A stretch of DNA of 64,000 nucleotides, from the NCBI GenBank assembly GCA_026636295.1, contig CP089452.1, positions 124,001-188,000 on the forward strand, written 5' to 3'. The position numbers and the translations under genes were made by a program. Positions 9,913 to 64,000 of this stretch are shown here, piece after piece. Below the pieces are notes generated by a model that ran no database searches, was not told the DNA's origin, and saw only the letters and a list, made by a program, of their open reading frames with translations. Within the stretch, counting starts at the first letter, position 1. Every line of letters begins with the position of its first letter. Source of the DNA: Medakamo hakoo (Eukaryota; Chlorophyta; Trebouxiophyceae; Coccomyxaceae).

Positions 9913-11891
9913 ATGCCTCATTCGTCCATGGTGGCCCGTCCCTCCCGTGGCGCCGCCTTCACCAGGCCCGCTCCAGGGCGGGGCCGGGCACGCACCCAAG
10001 CTAGCCACAACGCCCGTCCTGCCGCGGCCGCGTCGCTTCAATCCACGCCCAGCACATCCAGGGCAAGCTCGAAGCCGTGCGCGTCCTATGCTACCATCAA
10101 ACTGGCTTCTCAACCCCGCATCTCTGCAAACTTGCGCCGCCTCTCAAACGTTTGCACTCGCATCGCTCGCGCGACCACCGCGCGTGCTGCAAACGCCTCG
10201 CCGTCCGGTCCAGCCGACGTCGACACCGCCGCCCGCGACGCTTTGATGCTGTGCTGGTTTGCTGCCCAGGTCAGTCTGGTGGCTTGAAAACCCCATTGGA
10301 CGCCGGAGATCGCGCGCACCACCGCAAAACTCTCAATCCTCGCACGCGCACGACACAAACGCTGGGACCCTCCACCCCCCCCCCCCCCTCCCCATCACCT
10401 CACTCCCCCCCCCCACCCCCTCTCCCACCCACTCCCTCCCCACAGCGCCGCTCCCTCTTTGCCACCCGGTGCCTGGCCGACGTCGTCCTCGACCTGTACC
10501 GCCGCGGCATCGACCCGGCCGCCCCCATCACAGCCCTGGCCCTGGCCCGCCTGGCGTCGGGCGGCGCGGCCCTGGGCGGGCAGGCCGCCGCCGTCCTGTC
10601 CTCCTGGGTGACCCTCTCGTTCATGACGCTGGAAGAAGTGGGCGCGTCCCGGTACGACGGCGTGGACGGCGCCGCCGTCCCGCGGGCGGGCGACGGGTCC
10701 GCCACCGACGCGGGCATGCGGGCGTTCGCGCGGCAGACGGTGACCAAGTTTGCGGGCGGGTCGGGCGCGCGCCGGCTGCTGACGTCCCAAGTCCTCGCGG
10801 CCGCGGGCGGGGAGGGCCGCCTGCCCGGCTCCGACGCCGCCGACGCCGACGCTGGTGGCGGTGGACAGGGCGTCCCCCCGCGCGCCGTGGCGGGAGGCAT
10901 GGGCGGCCTTGCCGCCGTCATGCAAGCCAACGCGCGCGTGTGCGTGCTGACGCTGGACGCGGCGCGTGGGGCGGGCGTGGACCTGGCCGTCCCGCTGGAC
11001 CGCCTGGACGCGCTGGTCGGTGGCGGGGAGGGGGAGGAGGAGGGGGAGGAGGCCGAGGACGACCTCCCTGCGCCGTTTGGCCCGCCCGTCGGCTTTGCGG
11101 CCGGCGCCCTGCCGCCGCCCCCGGGCGCGCCGCGGCCGTCGGCTGAAACCCTGGCCCGCGCCACGGCCGCCCGCCTGCTGCTGTGCTTCATCGGCGCGGC
11201 CGGCCTGGCCGCGGCCGACCCGGCGACCGCCTTTGTCGAAGCCGCGGCGGACGCGTACCGTGCGGGAGCGACGGCCGCGGGCGCCCTGGCCCCCCTGCGC
11301 CCGGACGAGCTCGCGGCGGCGGGCCCAGACGCGGCGCTGCCCATAGTTGGCGGCGCCTCCCCGTCGTCCGCCGCCGCCGGCGACGCGGGCCCGGGCGCGG
11401 CGCTGCTGAAACAGTGGGTGAGCGTCGTGTTCATGGCCCTGGCCCTCAAGGGCGTGCCGCACCCGCGCGTGTCGGCCGCCGCCGCCGGCCCGGCGCCCGC
11501 GCCGCCGTCCCCGTCCCCGCTGGAAGTCGGGTGGGCCTACGCGGGCGACTCGGCGGCGGAGGCGTACGGCCTGGCGCGCGTGGTCGCAGGCGCCCTCGAG
11601 TCGGACGCCGAGGCTGGGCAAGGGAAGCCCGCCGTCGCGCCCGCTGTCATGCTGGCGTCCGCGGCGGCGGCCCGGGCGCGGGCCGGCCCCCGGCTGAAAG
11701 ACTTGAGCGGCGGCGGCGACCCGGACGCGGCGCCGCCGTCCGGCCTCGTCGTCCTCGAGGACGCGACCCTGTCCTCCACGTCCGCCGCCCTGTCCATCGT
11801 CCGCCAGCAGGTGGGCCTGGCTGTGGCGGCGGGCGCGCTGGTGGACGCCAAAGCGGGCGAGTGGGGGCTGGTGCCGGCGGAGGCGTGTTGA
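9913..11891 (+). CDS. Unknown plastid-type protein with an internal duplication
   Basis: Two exons, 9913-10269 and 10446-11891, phase 0 with GTCAGT donor, about 600 aa. The first 80 residues (MPHSSMVARPSRGAAFTRPA and onward) are Ser/Arg/Ala-rich without acids, like a transit peptide. The body has two similar units: one contains ALMLCWFAAQRRSL, DVVLDLYRRGIDPAAPI and SSWVTLSFMTLEEVG; the second contains [31 protein letters not shown] and KQWVSVVFMALALKGV. Each ends with the same 'W-V-[TS]-[LV]-x-FM-x-L' helix, so an ancient tandem duplication is likely. An acidic linker (GEGEEEGEEAEDD) separates them. I do not recognise the family and assign no function. Its 3' end lies only 71 bp from the convergent DedA gene. 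Confidence 0.65.
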
Positions 11892-17190: not shown

Positions 17191-20081
17191 ATGCCCCTCG
17201 CCATGATTGAGGGAGGTGGCCAGCGCAACGTGTGGGACGGGCCGACCATCTTGCAGGTGCGTCGCACGTGGCAGGGCGCTGCCGCGCGAGCCCCGCATGC
17301 GGTTCTTTTTTTTGCCTCCAACACCGCAAGCTCTCTCACGCCTCCCTCCCACACGCGCAGTCCTTCCTGACCATTGTCGAGGTCATCACGGTCTGCGCAT
17401 TTGGCGCCCTGCTGGCCCACCTGGTGAGTGTAGGATGGAGAGAGGGGAGGTCGGGCGTGCTGGCGGCGGCGACATGCGGCAAGAGTGTCACGGCCCAGCC
17501 ATAGCGCATGCGGGGAGGCACGCGCCGGGTCGCAGAGGCTTGCCTCCACGCTGTTTTGATTCCTACGTCAGCCCCGTGGCGTAACAGTTCGTGAAACAGA
17601 GGGAGAGCGTGGCGGAACGGCCGTCTGCACCCCAGGCGGGTCGGCGGCCGGCACTGGCCAGGAAGCCGCGCGAGCGGGCTCGCGCCAAGCCGTCGCAGCT
17701 TCACGCAGTCCAAGAAAGGGCGGGCGGGGGCCCACGCCAGCCCCTGACCGTCGCCCTCGGACCCCGCCGGTCGATGGCACAAGGCCTGAAGACCGCCTAG
17801 TAGGGGGTTGAGCTGTCAGCGGGTCGGCCGCCCCCCGCCAAAACGCGTTCCGGCGTCCTCTCAACTCATCCAACGCGCCGCACCGCGCGCGCGCGCAGGG
17901 CCCGCGCCACCATCCCCAACCCATCCCCGCCTCCTGCCCCCTCCCACCCCTCTCTGACACGCGGGCACACCCCGCCCCCGCCCCCCGCCCCCCACCCCCC
18001 CTGCAAAACACAAAACACAGGGCATCATCACCCAGCCCGTCCGCACCGCCATGTCCAAGGTGGGTTTCTACCTCCTCCTGCCCGCCATCACCTTTGTCAA
18101 GGTCGCGGAGGCCGTGGACGCGACGATCCTGGCCCGCTGGTGGCCGCTGGCCGCCAACCTGGCCTTTTCCATCGTCGTCGGCATCGTCGCCGGGTACATT
18201 CTGTCCCGCGCCCTGCGCGTGCCGCGCCCCCTGGAACGCACCGTCGTCGTCGCGTCGTCCATCGGCAACATCAACACGATCCCGCTGCTCGTCATCGCGT
18301 CGCTGTGCCAGTCCGACACGCTCATGTTCCGCCAGGTGCTGGGCGGCGGGTGTTCGACGCTCGGCATCGCGTACGTGGCCGTCGGCATGGCGGTCGGGTC
18401 CGTCTTCCACCACTCGCTCGCGTTCCACATGCTGAAGCCGCCCAAGTCGCACCGCCCGGACGGGGATGACGACCCGGCGGGGGAGGGCCTGCCCACGCTC
18501 ACGGCCGCCTGCCCGACGTGCGGGCGGGAGGGCGCCCGCGCGCCCACCACGGACGGCGGCGTCCTGGACACCTTGCGCCACTCCGAGCGGGGCGGGGGCG
18601 GGCGCGCCTCCTCCGCCGGCGGCGGCGGCGGCCTCCACTTGGAGCGGGCGTCCTCCATCCAGTCCTGGCAGAGCGACGACATGTTCTCCGGCCTCGAGAC
18701 GTTCACGGAAGCCGCCGCCTACTTGCACACGCCCGGGCACGCCGCCTGGGCGGGGCACCATTTCGGGACGCCGTGGGGCCGGGTGGTCGGGCCCTGGGCG
18801 GTCGGGTGGGGCGGGCGCGGCGCCGGGGACCGGCCGGGCACGCCCCGCCCGGGCTCAGCCGGCGGCGGCGTCCACCGCCGGCCGCGGTCGACGTCGGCGC
18901 CCGAAGTGGGCTCGCCCGTCATGGCGGCTCTGAAGGCGTCGCGCGGCGGCGTGGGCGGCCCCCTCGCCGCCATGGAAGGCGGCTGCCCGCCTCCGTGCGA
19001 CGAAGAGCTCGCGGCCCGCCCGCCGCCCCGCCCGTCCCTCGCCGGCTCGCTGGCCTCGCCCCGCTTCCCGACCATCCCCTCCGTCGGCGACGGCCTGGGC
19101 GACGACGCCGCGCGGGGGTCGGGTTTCGAGCGCGCCCCCTCCCTGGGCCGGTCCCTGCACGCCCGCCGGGCGAGCGGCGCGGGCGGCGGCGGCGGGTCCG
19201 TGATCTCGCTCGAAGCCTCGTCCGTGCTGGACGAGCCCGCCGACGGCGGCCCGAGCCCGCCGCCCGCCCGCATCGACGAAGGGGGCAGCCCGGAGAAAGG
19301 GCACGGCGGCGGCGGTGACGTCGAAGACGGCGGCAGCGAGGGCGGCGGCGCGCCGCCGGACGCCCCGCCCGCTGCCCGTGCGGGCTGCTGCGCGGGCTGC
19401 CTGGCCGCCCACCCCGTGGCCCGCGGCCGCGCTGCCGCCGCCGCACGGTCCGTGGCCCGCGCCGCGCTGACCGTCCTGTCCCCGATCATCTGGGTGCTCG
19501 TCACCCTGGAAAAGCTGCTGCCCGTCCCGGCCCTGATCTCCCTGGCCGGCATCGCCGTCGGCTGCTGCCCGCCCCTCAAGAAGCTCTTCTTCGGCCCGGC
19601 CGCGCCCCTGGAGTTTGCGGCGCATGCCCTCCACACCGTCGCCGGCGCCACCGTCCCCGTCATGTCCTTCATCCTGGGCGCCGTCCTGTACAAGGGCCCG
19701 GGCCGGGGCGCGACCGTGCGGTGGCACGTCATCGCGGGCGTGTGCCTCGTCCGCCTCCTGCTGCTCCCCCTGCTCGGCGCGGCCGTCGTCTTCGCGACCG
19801 AGGCCTGGGGCTGGTGGAAGCCGCTCGACCCGCTCTTTGTCTTCACCCTGCTCCTGCAGTGGATCGCGCCCACCGCCATCAACATGCAGGCCATCGCGAC
19901 GATGTTCCGGTACAAGGAGGCGGACATGGGCGCGCTCATCTTCTGGCAGCACGCCGTCTACCTGGTCTCCCTGCCCCTGTACATCTGCGGCGTCATGCAC
20001 TGGCTGGACCGGCTGCCGTTGAATTGGACGGCGAGCCCGCACGGGTTGGCGCCCACGAACGACCCGGGCGTGACGCCGTGA
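17191..20081 (+). CDS. PIN-like (PILS/auxin-efflux-carrier family) membrane transporter
   Basis: Three exons: 17191-17256, 17361-17423 and 18021-20081, all phase 0, about 729 aa. It belongs to the membrane transport family of PIN and PILS proteins (two inverted five-helix halves). N-terminal half: SFLTIVEVITVCAFGALLAH, KVGFYLLLPAITFVKVAEAV, and SSIGNINTIPLLVIASLCQ with the crossing-helix Asn/Pro motif. C-terminal half: PIIWVLVTLEKLLPVPALIS, FFGPAAPLEFAAHALHTVAG and LLLQWIAPTAINMQAIATMF. Between the halves is a hydrophilic loop of over 300 residues (Gly/Ser/Arg-rich, with one CPTCGRE pair), longer than in plant PILS proteins, which are usually about 400 aa in total. PILS proteins sit in the ER and affect intracellular auxin in land plants; the algal substrate is unknown. 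Intron 2 is long (597 nt). Confidence 0.85.
17424..18020 (+). other. Long intron (597 nt) of the PIN-like gene
   Basis: Donor GTGAGT after the 43rd codon, acceptor AACACAG. C-rich in its last 100 bases. No separate gene seen. Confidence 0.55.
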
Positions 20082-20422: not shown

Positions 20423-23400
20423 ATGGCAGCACCCACCCCTCCGCGCGCCAACTACCCCTTACGCGGCCGCGACAGCGGCCGCGCGGGCACCGTGCGTGCG
20501 GCGCAAGGCGAAGCCGACGCGTCGGCGCTGGCTTCCATCGCGGCCGGCCTGTCCCCGGTCTCCCTGACCAAAGCGGAGATGGACCGGTTCCGCGGGCGCA
20601 AAGCCGACTACCTGGGCGTGCGGTGAGTTGTGTGTGTGCTGGGGGGAGTGCTGTTTTGTGGGCGGGCACACCACCAATTGGGGCGTGTTCCCCTCACACC
20701 TCCGCCATCCCGACCCATCCCATCCTCAGCGACCGCCTCCTCCGCGCCTGGCAGGCCGCGCCGGCCACCTACCTCACGCTGGACGCTGCCCTGACGACCT
20801 GCGGCGCCGCGGATGCTGCCCTCGTCGCCGAAACGCACCGTTTTCTAACCTTGGACGGCCGCATCAACGTGTTTCTCTCCCCGCCACCGCCGCCAGAGGG
20901 GGCGCGCGCGGCCGACCCACCACCGCCGGCCGACCCGTCCGCCCCACCCACCCACGCCGCCTTAGCCGCCGCCGTCCAGGCCGTCCTGTCCAGCGTGGAC
21001 ACGGACGCGGTCACCCTCAAACAAGTCCGGGCGGCCGTCTCAGAGCGCCTGGGCGGCGCCGACCTGTCGTCCAGCCCGGAGCTCAAGGCCGCGCTCACGG
21101 CCATGGTGGACGCCGTCCTCGCGGGGGCCGACCCGGCTTCCGCCATCGCCGACGGGTCGGCCCCGCCCAGAGCGCGGCCGGCCTTGCCACCGCTGTCAGC
21201 CCCGGGCGCCCGCGTCATCGTCATCGGCGCGGGCCCCGCCGGCATCGCCGCCGCGCTCCACCTGCAAGCGGCCGGCGTTGCCGTGACGGTGCTGGAGGCG
21301 CGCGACCGGCCCGGCGGCCGCGTCTTCACGGCCGACCCGGCGACGACCGGCCTGTCCATCCCCGCCGACTGCGGCGCGTCCATCCTGACGGGGACGCGGG
21401 CTGTGTTGGTGGACGAAGGCCCGACGCCCGGGCGCCGCCCCGACCCGGCAGTGTGGGCAGTCGCCCAGACGCCGGGCGCGGCCCTCCACACGCTCGACGC
21501 GGAGCGCGTGCCCCTGTGGGATGGGGTGAGCGGGCAAGCCGTGGACGCTGCCTCCGACGACCGCGTCACGGCCGTGTGGGCGGGCCTGCAAGACGACGTC
21601 GCGGCCGCCGTGGAAGCCTGGACGGACGCGCACCCGGGCGGCGGCGGCGGGGCCGACCCGCCGCCCGACCTGGCCTCCCTCGGCGCGGCGCTCGACGCGG
21701 CCCTGGCCGCCCGGCTGGCGGGAGGAGGAGGCAAGCAAGCAGCGTCTGGCGACGGAGGAGGCGGCGGCGACGACCCGTCCGCGCCGTCGTCCGCCACGGC
21801 CGCCGCGTTCGCGGCCTTCACCCCCGGCCCGGCCTCGGCCGACGCCCGCCTTCTCGACTGGCACGCCGCCAACGCCGAGTACGGCTTCGCCGCCCCCCTG
21901 GCCTCCGTGTCCGCGCTGCACTGGAACGATGAGGACGCGACGGGCGGCGGGTTTGGCGGGCCCCACGCCATGGTCGTCGGCGGGTACGGCCAGGTCCTGG
22001 GCGGCCTGGCGGCGCGGCTGTCCGACCTCCGCCTGTCCACGCCCGCCGCCTCCATCCGGGACGTCCCGCCCGCCGACACGGCGTCGTCGCAGGCGGGCGG
22101 CCGGGTGGAAGTCACGACGGCGGCAGGGGAAACGCTGACCGCCGACGCCGTCGTCGTCGCCGTCCCGCTGGGCGTGCTCCAAGCGCTGCCCGGTGAGCGC
22201 TGCGGCATTGCCTTTGACCCGCCGCTGCCGCCCTGGAAGGCCAAGGCAATCGCGGCCCTGGGCATGGGCGCGCTCAACAAAGTTTTCCTGCGCTTCTCCA
22301 CGCCCTTTTGGCGGGAAGGCACGGGCGGGGCCGACATCTTTGGCGTCGCCCGCGCCGGCGGCCCGCCCGAGCGCGGGTGGGCGTTTTGCTTCTGGGACGT
22401 CGGGCGGTTTGCGCCCGGCGCGCCGGCCGTCCTCGTCGCCCTGCTGGCCGGCGCCGCCGCGCGGGAAGCCGAAACGCAGGCCGGAAAAGCCAAGGCCGTG
22501 GCCGCGGCGGTCGAAGGGCTGAGCGCGGCTTTTGGCGAGGCCGCGACCGCCGCGGGACCGCCCCTCGCCACGCACACGACCGCCTGGTGCGCCGACCCGG
22601 CGTCCCGCGGCGCGTACTCCTTCGTCCCGCCCGGCGCGGACGGCTCCACCTTTGAAGCCCTCGCCCGCCCGACGTCCGCCCGCGTCCTGTGGGCGGGCGA
22701 GCACACGGAGCGCGCGCACCAAGACACCGTGGGCGGGGCCGCGCTGTCCGGCCTGCGTGAAGCGGCGCGCCTGCTGCTGGGCGGCGGGCGGGTCGCCCAC
22801 CCGGACGACGCGGCCCGAGCGTCCGCGGCGCTGGCGGCGGCGGCTGGCGGCGGAGATGGCTCACCGTCGGCGGGCGACGACTGGTCGTCGTCGTCGTCGG
22901 AAGAGGAAGGAGCGGCGGGGGTGGAGGGCGGCCGCGCGCCCGCCGGGCGTGGCCGCGGGCGCGGCCGCGGCCGCCCGCGCCGGGCCGCCGCCCTAGCCGC
23001 CGAAGCCGCCAACCGCCCTCGCGCGGCCGCCGCCCAACAGGCCCGGTCCGCCGTCCTCAAAGACGCCGAGCTGGAGGCCGCGTCCAAGGCGGCCGCGGAC
23101 GAGCGGGCGTCGACGCGCGCGCTGTGGAGCGCTTGCGCCGCGGCCTCCTCACGCGGGGACGGGCCGGGGCTGGTGGCGGAGTTGCGCAAGGCGGGCGCGG
23201 AGGGGCCCGGCGGCCAGGCGCGCGCGCTGCGCATCCTGCGCGGCGCGGACAGCCGGGCCATGGCGGCGTTGGTCAAGGCGCCCGGTGGGGCGGCGCTCGT
23301 GGCCGGGTGGTGCGAGGGTTTGGCCGGCCTGCCGCCGGCGGGCGCGCCGGCGGGCGCGGCGGCCAACGCGGCCCGCGTTGTGGGGGCCCTGCCGCTGCCC

Positions 23401-24183
23401 CCCGCCGAGCGTGGCCCGACGGGCGCGGAGCGTGCTTTGCGGGCCGCGGCAGCCCACGCGGACGAGGAGGTGGCGGGCGCCGCCAATGCCGCGCTCGACG
23501 CCTGGTTTGGGAAGGGCGGCGGGCGGGGGGCGACGCCGCCGAGCGCTGAGCCCGCCGCGCTTCCTGCCGCCGTCCCGTCGCCCGAGCCACAAGCCCTGCC
23601 GGAAGACCCAGCGGCGGCTGTCGCTGCTTTAGCTGCCCGTGTTGCTGCTGCTGGGGCGGGCGTGTCGGCGGCCCTCTCCGCTCAGCTGGCCGAAGCGCAG
23701 GCCGCGGCCGCCGCGGCCGCGGCGCACGCTGCCGCGGCCGAAGCGCTCGAACGCCGGGCGGCCGAAGTCAACGGCGGCGCAGCGGCTGAAGCTGTCGCGG
23801 CCCCTCCGCCGCCCGCCCTCGCGGACTTCGCGGCCTTTGCCAAAGCCGCGCGCCGGGCGGCGCGCGCTGCGGTCGGTGGTGGAGGTGGAGGTCAAGCGCC
23901 TGCAGCGCCGCCTCCCACCACCACCGCGCCCGCCGACCTGACGGCCGCTGTTCGCTCCGCAGTATCCGCTTGCTTGAAGCCCGCATTTAAAGCGGGGAAG
24001 CTGTCCCAGGCCGCGTACAACGACGTCGCCCGCCGGGCGGCGGCCAAGGTGTTGGGTGGGCTGACCCGGCCTGGCGCGCCGCCCGTGCCGCTGCCGTTGC
24101 CCGCCGGTCACGTGGCCAAGATTCGGGCGCTGGTGGACGCGTACGTCACGCAAGCGCGCAAAGCGGGTGGGGGTGGGGCGTAG
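20423..24183 (+). CDS. LSD1-type histone demethylase: SWIRM, amine oxidase, AT-hook, TFIIS-N-like and SRI-like domains
   Basis: Two exons, 20423-20622 and 20730-24183, phase 2 (CG+C), about 1217 aa. LSD1 proteins remove methyl groups from histone H3 lysine using FAD. Domains in order: SWIRM (about 40-125; AEMDRFRGRKADYLGVRDRL, ending FLTLDGRINVFL); amine oxidase from VIVIGAGPAGIAAALHL (FAD site, about 229) through GALNKVFLRF with Lys584, the equivalent of LSD1 Lys661, to VLWAGEHTERAHQDTVGGAA; an acidic Ser/Glu stretch; an AT-hook-like GRGRGRGRPRR (about 808); a helical unit (about 861-995) ending EEVAGAANAALDAWF that looks like a TFIIS N-terminal/LW domain; and a final unit (about 1137-1210; CLKPAFKAGKLSQAAYNDVA then KIRALVDAYV) like the SRI/SCAF-type domains that bind RNA polymerase II. 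The last two are not part of animal LSD1. Nuclear. A TGTAA lies 33 nt past the stop. Confidence 0.88.
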
Positions 24184-24465: not shown

Positions 24466-26872
24466 TCAGCCCTCTGCTTTGAGCGGCGGCGCCACATATG
24501 CGTCCCGCGACCAGGCGACCTGCTTCTTGGCCGGCGGCGACGAGCCCTTGGGCGCGCGCAGCACGCCGCCGCCTCCTTTGCTCCCACCAACTTTGCCGCC
24601 GCCGCCCAGCCGCCCGGCCTGCGCGCGGCCGAGCCGGGCGGCAGACGTGGCGGGCAACGGCGCGCCCGCCTCCGCCGCCCGCCGCGACGCACCCGCCCTC
24701 TGCAGGCGAGACTCCCAGGGCAGCGCGCCCGCAGGCGGCGGCGGTGGGCCGGCCGCGCACTCGCGGTCGGCCCTGCGGCGGGCGAGCCACCCCGACAGGC
24801 GCGACCCCGCCGGCGCGGCGTGCGCTTCGGCGAGGGCGGACAGCACGTCGCGCGTCGCCGCCAGCCAGGCGATGTCGGGCGAGTCGGCGGACCCCCGCAC
24901 AGACACGCGGGCGGCGGGGGTGGGGGGGGGCGGCGGGGGTGAGGCCGCCGGCGCAGGCTGCCCGCCCACCTCTCTGCCGCCCACACCACCCGCCGTCGCG
25001 TCCGACAGGCCCAGGGAGTCGCTCAGAATCGCCATGGTCATGTCCAGCCGCCCAGGCGCCGGAGCAGCGCATGGAGGCGGACGCGGCGGCGGGCTGCCGG
25101 CAGCGCCGCGCCGCCCCCACCCCGCCGCCACTTTCCAGCGGGCGCGCGCACGCGCAGCGCGGGACGCGGCGTCGGCCGCTTGCGGGGCCGCCAGGGAGAC
25201 GACGCCCCACATGGCCAGGTGGGCGGCGCCCGCCCCGCCGGCGAAGTTGCGGGACGCCAGCATGTCCAGGCGCCCCGACTCCACCCAGAAGTTGGCAAAG
25301 TGGACGCGGGCCGCAATGGGGCCCGTCCAGGCTTGCAGCGCGTCGGGTGGCAGCGCCGCCGCGGCCGGCTTGGAGCCGGACGCGCTCATGCCGCACAGCG
25401 CCACGTCTTCGCGCCGCCCGCTGGTGGCCGTCGGGCCCTTGGACGGCGGAGACACACCAGGCGGCGCCGGCGAGCCGGCTTTGGCGCGGGCGCCGCCGAC
25501 CATCCGCAGCGCACCCAGCACCAGGGGCGTCGGGCGGAGCGCCAGCCGCAGCGGGTCCACGCCCACGTCCAGCGCCGTGCACGGCAGGTGGCCCGGCGCG
25601 GACGGGTGGACGGGCTCGAGGCTCACACGCACGGAGTCGTCCTCCAGGAGCCGGACCGCGCCCGCGAGGAGGGGGTGGATGCGGCCGAGGACGCCGCGGA
25701 CGAGGGCGGGCGTCAGGTCCAGGGCCGCGCGCGCGGGCGAGGAGAGCGTGAACCCCGTGCTGGTCAGCCAGCCGTACGCGGAGACGGCACCCTTTTCCGC
25801 CTCGGCCCGGAGCGCGACGGGCAGGAGGGGGACGCCGCCCGCGGGCGAGGGCGGGGGCGCGCTCGCGGGCCGCGCCCAGCCCAGGGACGGCAGGCTGAGC
25901 TTGCGGCCCTCGCCCGGCCGGCGCAGCGTGGAGGCGCCACCCGTCACGAAGAGGGAGACGCGCGTGCCGATGACGTCGGTCAGGGCGGAGGGGAGGGTGA
26001 GGGCGCCGCCGGCGATGGTGACCTGAGGTTTTTTTGGCGGAGGTGGTGTTGTCAGGGAGAGGCGCGCATGGATGGGGCAGGGGGGCGGTCGGTTCGGCGA
26101 CGGAGCGCCGTGGGCCCTCACCTTGGCGCCCCACACCCGCAGGCGGGCGGTCAGTTCGCCCCTCACGGGCTCCAGGGACAGGCCGCGTGGCAAGGAGAGC
26201 GCGCCGCCCTCTCCAGCCGCGTCGGCCGCGGCCGCGACGGCGGCGGCCAAGGCCTCGCCCTCGGCCCCGAGCGGCGGCGGCGGTGGAGGTTCCTCCCCGT
26301 CCGGCGGCGGCGCGTCTGCGGACGCGTCGAACGTCGCTTTCCCCGCCGCCAGCTGGTCGTCCGCACAGCTTGGCATCCGCACCAGGCCCAGCCACGCTAA
26401 GAACGCCAAAATTGTTGGCTCGAGCGTGCCCGGCTGGAGGGAGACGGTGAGGGCCGCGCCCTCCACTACAAAGTGCAGCGGGCGGCCCGGGTGGCGGACC
26501 AGGGAGGTCAGAGGAGCCGTGGCGGCGACGGACGACGCGGAGAAAAGCACCCCTCCCCCCAGCTCGGCCGGCAAGCGTAACGTGACGCGACGGGTGCGGG
26601 GAGTGGGGAGGAGGCGGGGGTGGTCGACGGAGAGGAGGCCTGGTGTGGAGGGAGGGAGGAGGAGGGGTGAGAAAAAAAAGGAACCTCGCGGGTTGGCGGC
26701 GACGAAGGAAAACGTCCGCACGGCTCCCCGCACACTCACCATGACGGATGATTTTCAACGCTGCGGGCAGGAGGTGGTCCACAGCTCGGACGAAAGCTCG
26801 GACCAGGGCCCAGTTGGCAGCGACGAGGGCGGCCGCCACGGCCGCCAGCAGCAGGCCGGCCGCGGCGAGCAT
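24466..26872 (-). CDS. Membrane-anchored protein of unknown family (beta-rich, possibly lipid-transfer type)
   Basis: Three exons: 26872-26740, 26639-26122 and 26022-24466; phases 1 and 0 match, about 735 aa. The N-terminus is one strong membrane helix, MLAAAGLLLAAVAAALVAAN, followed by a short amphipathic segment (RAFVRAVDHLLPAALKIIR). The rest is predicted mostly beta with repeated short strands: RVTLRLPAELGGGVLFSA, HFVVEGAALTVSLQPG, LSLEPVRGELTARLRVWGAK, VTIAGGALTLPSALTDVIG, CTALDVGVDPLRLALRPTP and ARVHFANFWVESGRLDM. One N-terminal anchor followed by repetitive beta strands is the plan of AsmA/TamB and chorein-like lipid-transfer proteins, but I see no decisive motif. The last 150 residues are Ala/Gly/Pro-rich. 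Intron 2 (99 nt) keeps the frame open, so its retention would not truncate the protein. Confidence 0.6.
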
Positions 26873-63295: not shown

Positions 63296-64000
63296 TCACT
63301 CCAGCCCCCGCCCCTCCACACTGACGCGCGACCCCCGCGCCGGGCCCGCCCGGCCCCGCTTGGCTAGGGCATCCAGTGCTTTCTCCACTTTTGTTTTGGC
63401 GTTCCCGCCGCCGCCGCCGCCGCCGCCGAACAGCGCGCCCGCCGCGACCGTGGTCGCGCCCAGCCCGGCGTCCGGCTGGCGCACGAAATCCAGGCGCGCC
63501 TGCGTGGGAGGCAGCGCACGGCGCCTGAAGCCGCGGTCGCCAGGGTTCAGGCCCGCCGCCGCGTCTGCGGCCGCCTGCTTGGCGGCCGCGTCGGCCGCGA
63601 CCCGCGCCGCGCGCGCGGCGAGCGCGGCCTCCGCGCGCGCCGCCCGCGCCGCGTCCTCCCCCTCCACGTCCCGGTGCTTCTCCCACACAGGCCGGGCCCA
63701 GGCCGTGACCAGGGCCCGCGCCAGCCGCGTTTCCGTGGGCGACGCCCCCGGCACGCGGGACAGGAGCATGACGGCCTTGCCGACGCCCGACTGGACGAGC
63801 TGCACGCGCCGGTCCGGGTCGGCCGCGTCGACGTTGAGGGTCGTCAGCGCGCGCAGGACGGCTTCGCGGACGCGGGCGGGCGGGAGGACCAGGGGGCCAC
63901 CGCCGTCGCCGTCGCCGCCGTCGCCGCCGCGCCGCCCGCCCTCCTTGGGCGCCGCCTTGGCCGGCTCCAGCCAGGTTTTCAGCAGGCCCAGCACGCCGTT
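63296..64000 (-). CDS. IWS1: Transcription elongation factor IWS1/SPN1, C-terminal part (5' end outside window)
   Basis: Reading frame open to the window edge; about 234 codons are visible. IWS1 binds Spt6 and RNA polymerase II during elongation. The TFIIS N-terminal (LW) domain: NGVLGLLKTWLEPAKAA, LPPARVREAVLRALTTLNVD, LVQSGVGKAVMLLSRVPGAS and RALVTAWARPVWEK, equivalent to 'hSGiGraVmyLyKhP.E...n' and 'LinEWsRPIf' in human. The conserved tail is present too: LNPGDRGFRRRALPPTQARL, DFVRQPDA and RGSRVSVEGRGLE, equivalent to human 'lrPGDpGf.~RArVP', 'yvvRP' and 'kiSiEG'. The acidic N-terminal part lies outside. Confidence 0.93.
   Translation of the reverse strand, partial: NGVLGLLKTWLEPAKAAPKEGGRRGGDGGDGDGGGPLVLPPARVREAVLRALTTLNVDAADPDRRVQLVQSGVGKAVMLLSRVPGASPTETRLARALVTAWARPVWEKHRDVEGEDAARAARAEAALAARAARVAADAAAKQAAADAAAGLNPGDRGFRRRALPPTQARLDFVRQPDAGLGATTVAAGALFGGGGGGGGNAKTKVEKALDALAKRGRAGPARGSRVSVEGRGLE

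Follow-up and report, generated by a model that had tools for sequence, protein, structure and literature searches.

LDL3 is described as a separate lineage of LSD1-type proteins, in a clade that includes green algae, with a putative TFIIS-like domain reported in its tail in 2019 (PMC6558185). For Arabidopsis LDL3, binding to phosphorylated RNA polymerase II (RNAPII) through the SRI domain is reported, an SRI-deletion mutant failing to interact in the way of the full-length protein (PMC10690457, EMBO J 2023). The enzyme is further reported to demethylate dimethylated lysine 4 of histone H3 (H3K4me2) cotranscriptionally in a manner that depends on Paf1C and on phosphorylation of the RNAPII C-terminal domain (CTD); the SRI domain is also reported in LDL3 of rice, poplar, Selaginella and Physcomitrella (PMC10690457). 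The mechanism is thus already established in outline for plants (PMC10690457, PMC6558185). Here we describe a gene at 20423-24183 (+) in a 64-kb window of Medakamo hakoo, an ultrasmall freshwater green alga with a published genome of 15.8 Mb, 18 contigs including two organellar ones, and 72.7% GC (PMC9871001). The window is the whole stretch of DNA analysed, C15:124001-188000 in an assembly whose 16 contigs total 15,638,232 bases. The gene is very probably the LDL3 orthologue of this alga, and its product would be an LSD1-type, flavin adenine dinucleotide (FAD)-dependent demethylase, expected to remove H3K4me2.

An earlier note on this DNA knew of no described LSD1 with a comparable tail, a claim overtaken by the publications on plant LDL3, which report the TFIIS-like domain (PMC6558185) and the SRI, the latter together with its binding to phosphorylated RNAPII (PMC10690457).

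Gene model and catalytic part

Joining two exons at a GT-AG intron yields a single open protein of 1217 residues, in which SWIRM, DEK_C, oxidase, TFIIS N-terminal domain (TND)-type and SRI regions follow one another in an order homologous with that of plant LDL3 except for DEK_C. The features, all on the forward strand, are as follows.

20423-24183 (+): whole gene, two exons, 1217 residues, predicted from sequence and homology
20423..20622 (+): exon 1, with the ATG at 20423 and the first half of SWIRM
20623..20729 (+): intron of 107 bases, GT-AG, inferred from sequence and homology
20730..24183 (+): exon 2, running to the stop codon ending at 24183
20597..20868 (+): SWIRM, residues 59-113, split by the intron (PF04433, E 7.4e-7)
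20947..21120 (+): DEK_C, residues 140-197 (PF08766, E 4.2e-10; the genome search agrees on the bases)
21238..22776 (+): FAD amine oxidase, residues 237-749 (PF01593, E 1.3e-64; the genome search gives the same bases)
22279..22281 (+): Lys584 in the LNK motif, at the position of the LSD1 catalytic lysine
22936..22989 (+): basic Gly-Arg stretch, AT-hook-like, read from the translation (GRGRGRGRPRR)
23116..23505 (+): TND-type helical domain, residues 863-992, from relatives' profiles and predicted fold
23824..23844 (+): DFAAFAK, counterpart of the plant LDL3 SF.KFA motif, from the tail alignment
23935..24156 (+): SRI domain, residues 1136-1209, from the LDL3 profile

The SWIRM and complete amine oxidase with an active lysine that the earlier note had read from the letters are borne out, the domains by Pfam and the lysine by its number in the protein. 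In the spliced protein SWIRM reaches 29.8 bits where the cut-off is 28.6, and the residues ahead of the exon junction resemble, by eye, the SWIRM part of a Myrmecia protein (P0027); the exon-by-exon genome search missed this domain, which the intron splits. The oxidase match spans positions 2-443 of the 443 in the profile and includes the LNK lysine, Lys584, which is invariant in the window protein and its three closest homologues (P0001-P0003, below) and which we take, from LSD1, to occupy the catalytic position. DEK_C, absent from the earlier note and found by Pfam between SWIRM and the oxidase, scores 39.8 bits against a cut-off of 24.8.

Tail homology and rival explanations

A search with residues 710-1150 of exon 2, in which 7983 candidates were scored, returned three proteins at E<=1 (1.8e-72, 6.0e-69 and 2.3e-13), and all three (P0001-P0003) carry DEK_C and Amino_oxidase in Pfam. 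They align with the window protein from DEK_C and the oxidase through to the last helix, the start of SWIRM being absent or unrecognised in P0002 and P0003. Because the same tail stands collinearly behind DEK_C and the oxidase in all three, it belongs to the oxidase, and more distant LDL3 proteins of green algae and land plants also have it behind the oxidase. A profile of these four sequences, run on 7989 candidates, retrieved 25 proteins at E<=1e-10. Besides P0001-P0003 these are SWIRM-oxidases from green algae and land plants and a small number of other oxidases; three carry LDL3 or "homolog 3" as a name, most others being unnamed or hypothetical. With the Elliptochloris protein P0004 (residues 230-1318) as query, 182 proteins matched at E<=1e-20, and among the 120 of these matches listed at least 30, counted by eye, bear names such as "homolog 3", "1-like protein 3" or "LSD1-like 3"; an Arabidopsis suecica entry among them is named "TFIIS/LEDGF domain superfamily". 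Aligned with 16 homologous tails, that of the window protein shares with them the succession of TND-type region, SF.KFA-like motif and SRI. We conclude that the tail is that of the LDL3 family, its parts keeping their order across green algae and land plants, and no private invention of M. hakoo.

The segments that the earlier note had singled out (GRGRGRGRPRR, EEVAGAANAALDAWF, CLKPAFKAGKLSQAAYNDVA and KIRALVDAYV) all lie in one frame, and its assignment of the tail to TFIIS-N-like and SRI-like domains agrees with our comparisons, in which LDL3-tail profiles match the Set2/SETD2 SRI and the TFIIS-N-type domains of PNUTS and IWS1 in PDB. The Pfam scan of the spliced protein found no family in the tail, PF08236 (the Pfam SRI) matched neither the window protein nor P0001-P0003, and Med26 was likewise missing from those three in Pfam. 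Among the 12 homologues scanned, one of which (P0022) is probably not LDL3, SRI reached its cut-off in five (P0004, P0005, P0013, P0018 and P0020) and Med26 in one (P0005, E 2.7e-4); in precomputed Pfam annotation the Myrmecia bisecta protein P0027 carries SWIRM, DEK_C, Amino_oxidase, Med26 (TFIIS-type) and SRI together. An independent LDL3 profile recognised the SRI of the window protein (E 9.4e-8). For the TND, the same kind of profile gave the window protein by itself 5.5 bits, which is not significant, and P0003 E 1.3e-5; hhalign placed the region at probability 77.6 (E 1.9e-5), and the model (pLDDT 95.4) had the PNUTS TND at Foldseek ranks 1-2, with an E of about 0.1. Two other open reading frames in the window score near the 5.5 bits, at 63695-63868 (-) with 6.4 bits and at 10050-10202 with 5.1 bits; the former is an IWS1-like gene, itself with a TFIIS-type domain, and the latter is unrelated. 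That second TFIIS-type helical domain gene (63686-63868, -; PF08711, E 2.6e-5; IWS1/Spn1-like) is found at the end of the window, some 39 kb from the LDL3 gene.

The predicted folds speak for both tail domains, with the Set2 SRI and the PNUTS TND among their best matches, though near-tied with unrelated helical folds. Caution is also due because the SRI is divergent in the window protein and the TFIIS-N assignment is a weak one, drawn from relatives and predicted fold rather than from the domain's own score. It could be argued that the tail is a gene of its own, separate from the oxidase, or an open frame that arose by chance given the GC richness of this genome. In such sequence long open frames come easily, as a 970-residue frame antisense to the gene illustrates, so that openness is little proof; the tail by itself has no Pfam match; and third-position GC, which in blocks of about 300 bases is 0.84-0.94 up to about 23430, falls to 0.71-0.75 in the final three blocks, the last of which extends beyond the stop. 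Codon usage alone would therefore not prove the tail, and homology must. Since the tail is collinear after the oxidase in P0001-P0003 and in LDL3 of green algae and land plants, and its SRI is found by the independent profile, we regard a separate or spurious tail as highly improbable.

A second alternative accepts LDL3 by descent and supposes that polymerase binding was lost, the diverged SRI leaving a tail with a different contact or a purely structural role. PF08236 is unmatched in the window protein and in P0001-P0003, and a lysine that contacts the CTD in the human SETD2 SRI is replaced by Asn in the window protein and by Asp in P0001-P0003. The RPB1 CTD of M. hakoo (C3:1079272-1079667) is itself non-canonical, being degenerate and non-tandem, with 11 SPxSPA units and four YSPSSPAWSP units in Gly/Ala-rich linkers and no YSPTSPS. 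However, the domain is still an SRI by profile with a compatible fold, and because the CTD retains paired Ser-Pro sites in the four YSPSSPAWSP units, co-divergence of SRI and CTD is as likely as lost binding; we consider the loss unlikely. It could further be proposed that the tail works as in SETD2, with a TND-like autoinhibitory domain relieved when the SRI engages the polymerase. In SETD2/Set2, too, a histone-modifying enzyme is followed by a TND-like helical domain together with an SRI, and the SETD2 autoinhibitory domain is reported as predicted to be similar to the TFIIS N-domain (PMC9167812). SETD2/Set2 is, however, an H3K36 methyltransferase and not a demethylase, and the helical domain shows profile similarity to PNUTS and IWS1, not to SETD2. 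Autoinhibition of this kind seems quite improbable.

DEK_C and a possible mechanism

We scored 138 proteins (137 and the window protein) with a DEK_C profile built from six algal pieces. At E<=0.005 it matched 31 of them, a count that takes in its six seeds. Of these 31, 14 come from green algae that are named, 16 are unnamed entries and one is the window protein, whose E was 0.0041 against 4.2e-10 with Pfam's profile. No land-plant protein scored was significant (the best being Selaginella P0038 at 0.041, Anisodus P0098 at 0.083 and Solanum P0010 at 0.83), and seven land-plant linkers inspected by eye look unrelated to DEK_C. As the domain occurs in green algae, including the prasinophyte Cymbomonas (P0051), and not in the land plants examined, it is an old feature of the algal form, either gained there or lost in land plants. 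A further DEK_C match in the genome (C7:346348-346768) consists of two pieces, the second under the cut-off.

In an oxidase-domain tree of 27 rows (P0023 and P0024 dropped; reference rows for land-plant LDL1, LDL2 and FLD not included), the window protein groups with P0001-P0002 (100/100) and then with P0003 (99/97), while seven land-plant LDL3 proteins form one group (100/100) that Cymbomonas P0051 joins (95/93). Branches between algal groups are unsupported and that of the outgroup P0025 is very long; eleven rows, the window protein among them, are flagged by the program for residue make-up. A second SWIRM and amine oxidase gene of M. hakoo (C3:273513-275498, a 1099-residue frame), in which the tail was not detected, groups with Chlamydomonas P0022 (99/97). 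Another SWIRM, at C4:405972-406223, lies in a SWI3-like frame that by eye also has a SANT-like segment.

By analogy with Arabidopsis LDL3, the SRI would dock on elongating polymerase at the phosphorylated tail of RPB1, and the docked oxidase would erase H3K4me2 over transcribed genes; CDC73 of Paf1C is present in the genome (E 2.4e-40). From domain type, the TND-type domain may provide a second contact, to an elongation-factor peptide, and DEK_C may bind DNA or the nucleosome near the active site, replacing an external partner. We tentatively propose, as a possibility somewhat short of even, a green algal form of LDL3 in which DEK_C is a built-in nucleosome- or DNA-binding arm in the role of CoREST and the enzyme is kept on elongating polymerase by TND and SRI. 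Cotranscriptional erasure of H3K4me2 would then be older than the divergence of chlorophytes from land plants, and the M. hakoo SRI would have co-diverged with the non-tandem CTD. The earlier note suggested that this alga may have wired lysine demethylation to elongating polymerase without a CoREST-like partner: the link itself fits Arabidopsis LDL3 (PMC10690457), whereas the wiring would not be the alga's own, the tail being that of the LDL3 family, and a missing partner would not be special to it because plants are reported not to encode CoREST (PMC6558185).

With the same tail in chlorophytes, the origin of the arrangement would move to the base of green plants. The DEK_C insertion points to a way for the enzyme to hold nucleosomes when CoREST is lacking. 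M. hakoo, a small alga in which the LDL3 gene and one other SWIRM-oxidase gene were found, offers a simple place to test the arrangement. The modest additions made here are the tracing of the SRI-bearing tail through chlorophytes and the presence of DEK_C in algal members where the land-plant linkers examined are without it. This insertion is of mild interest, as are the divergence of SRI and CTD and the extension of the tail to chlorophytes.

The gene is flanked upstream by a membrane transport protein (17958-20081, +; PF03547, E 1.5e-36), of the family of PIN/PILS auxin carriers, and downstream by a 762-residue open frame (24469-26754, -) that may be spliced and has no Pfam match at E<=0.001.

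Comparison with known systems

Animal LSD1, like the window protein, combines SWIRM with an FAD amine oxidase carrying an active lysine. The same combination is described for LDL1, LDL2 and FLD (PMC6558185), of which LDL2 and FLD are reported to differ in having no SRI and no comparable phospho-RNAPII binding (PMC10690457). FLD is reported to work together with LD, which has a TFIIS domain and is compared to PNUTS, and this Arabidopsis module likewise brings an LSD1-type demethylase and a TFIIS-domain protein together on transcribed chromatin (PMC7616277). The module has its TFIIS-type domain on a protein other than the demethylase, whereas in M. hakoo it is in the same chain. The closest likeness is to Arabidopsis LDL3, which has SWIRM, amine oxidase and a long tail with a TFIIS-like domain, an SF.KFA-type motif and a C-terminal SRI in the same order. 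The window protein differs from plant LDL3 in its DEK_C between SWIRM and oxidase, in a much shorter stretch ahead of the oxidase, and in its more divergent SRI and TND.
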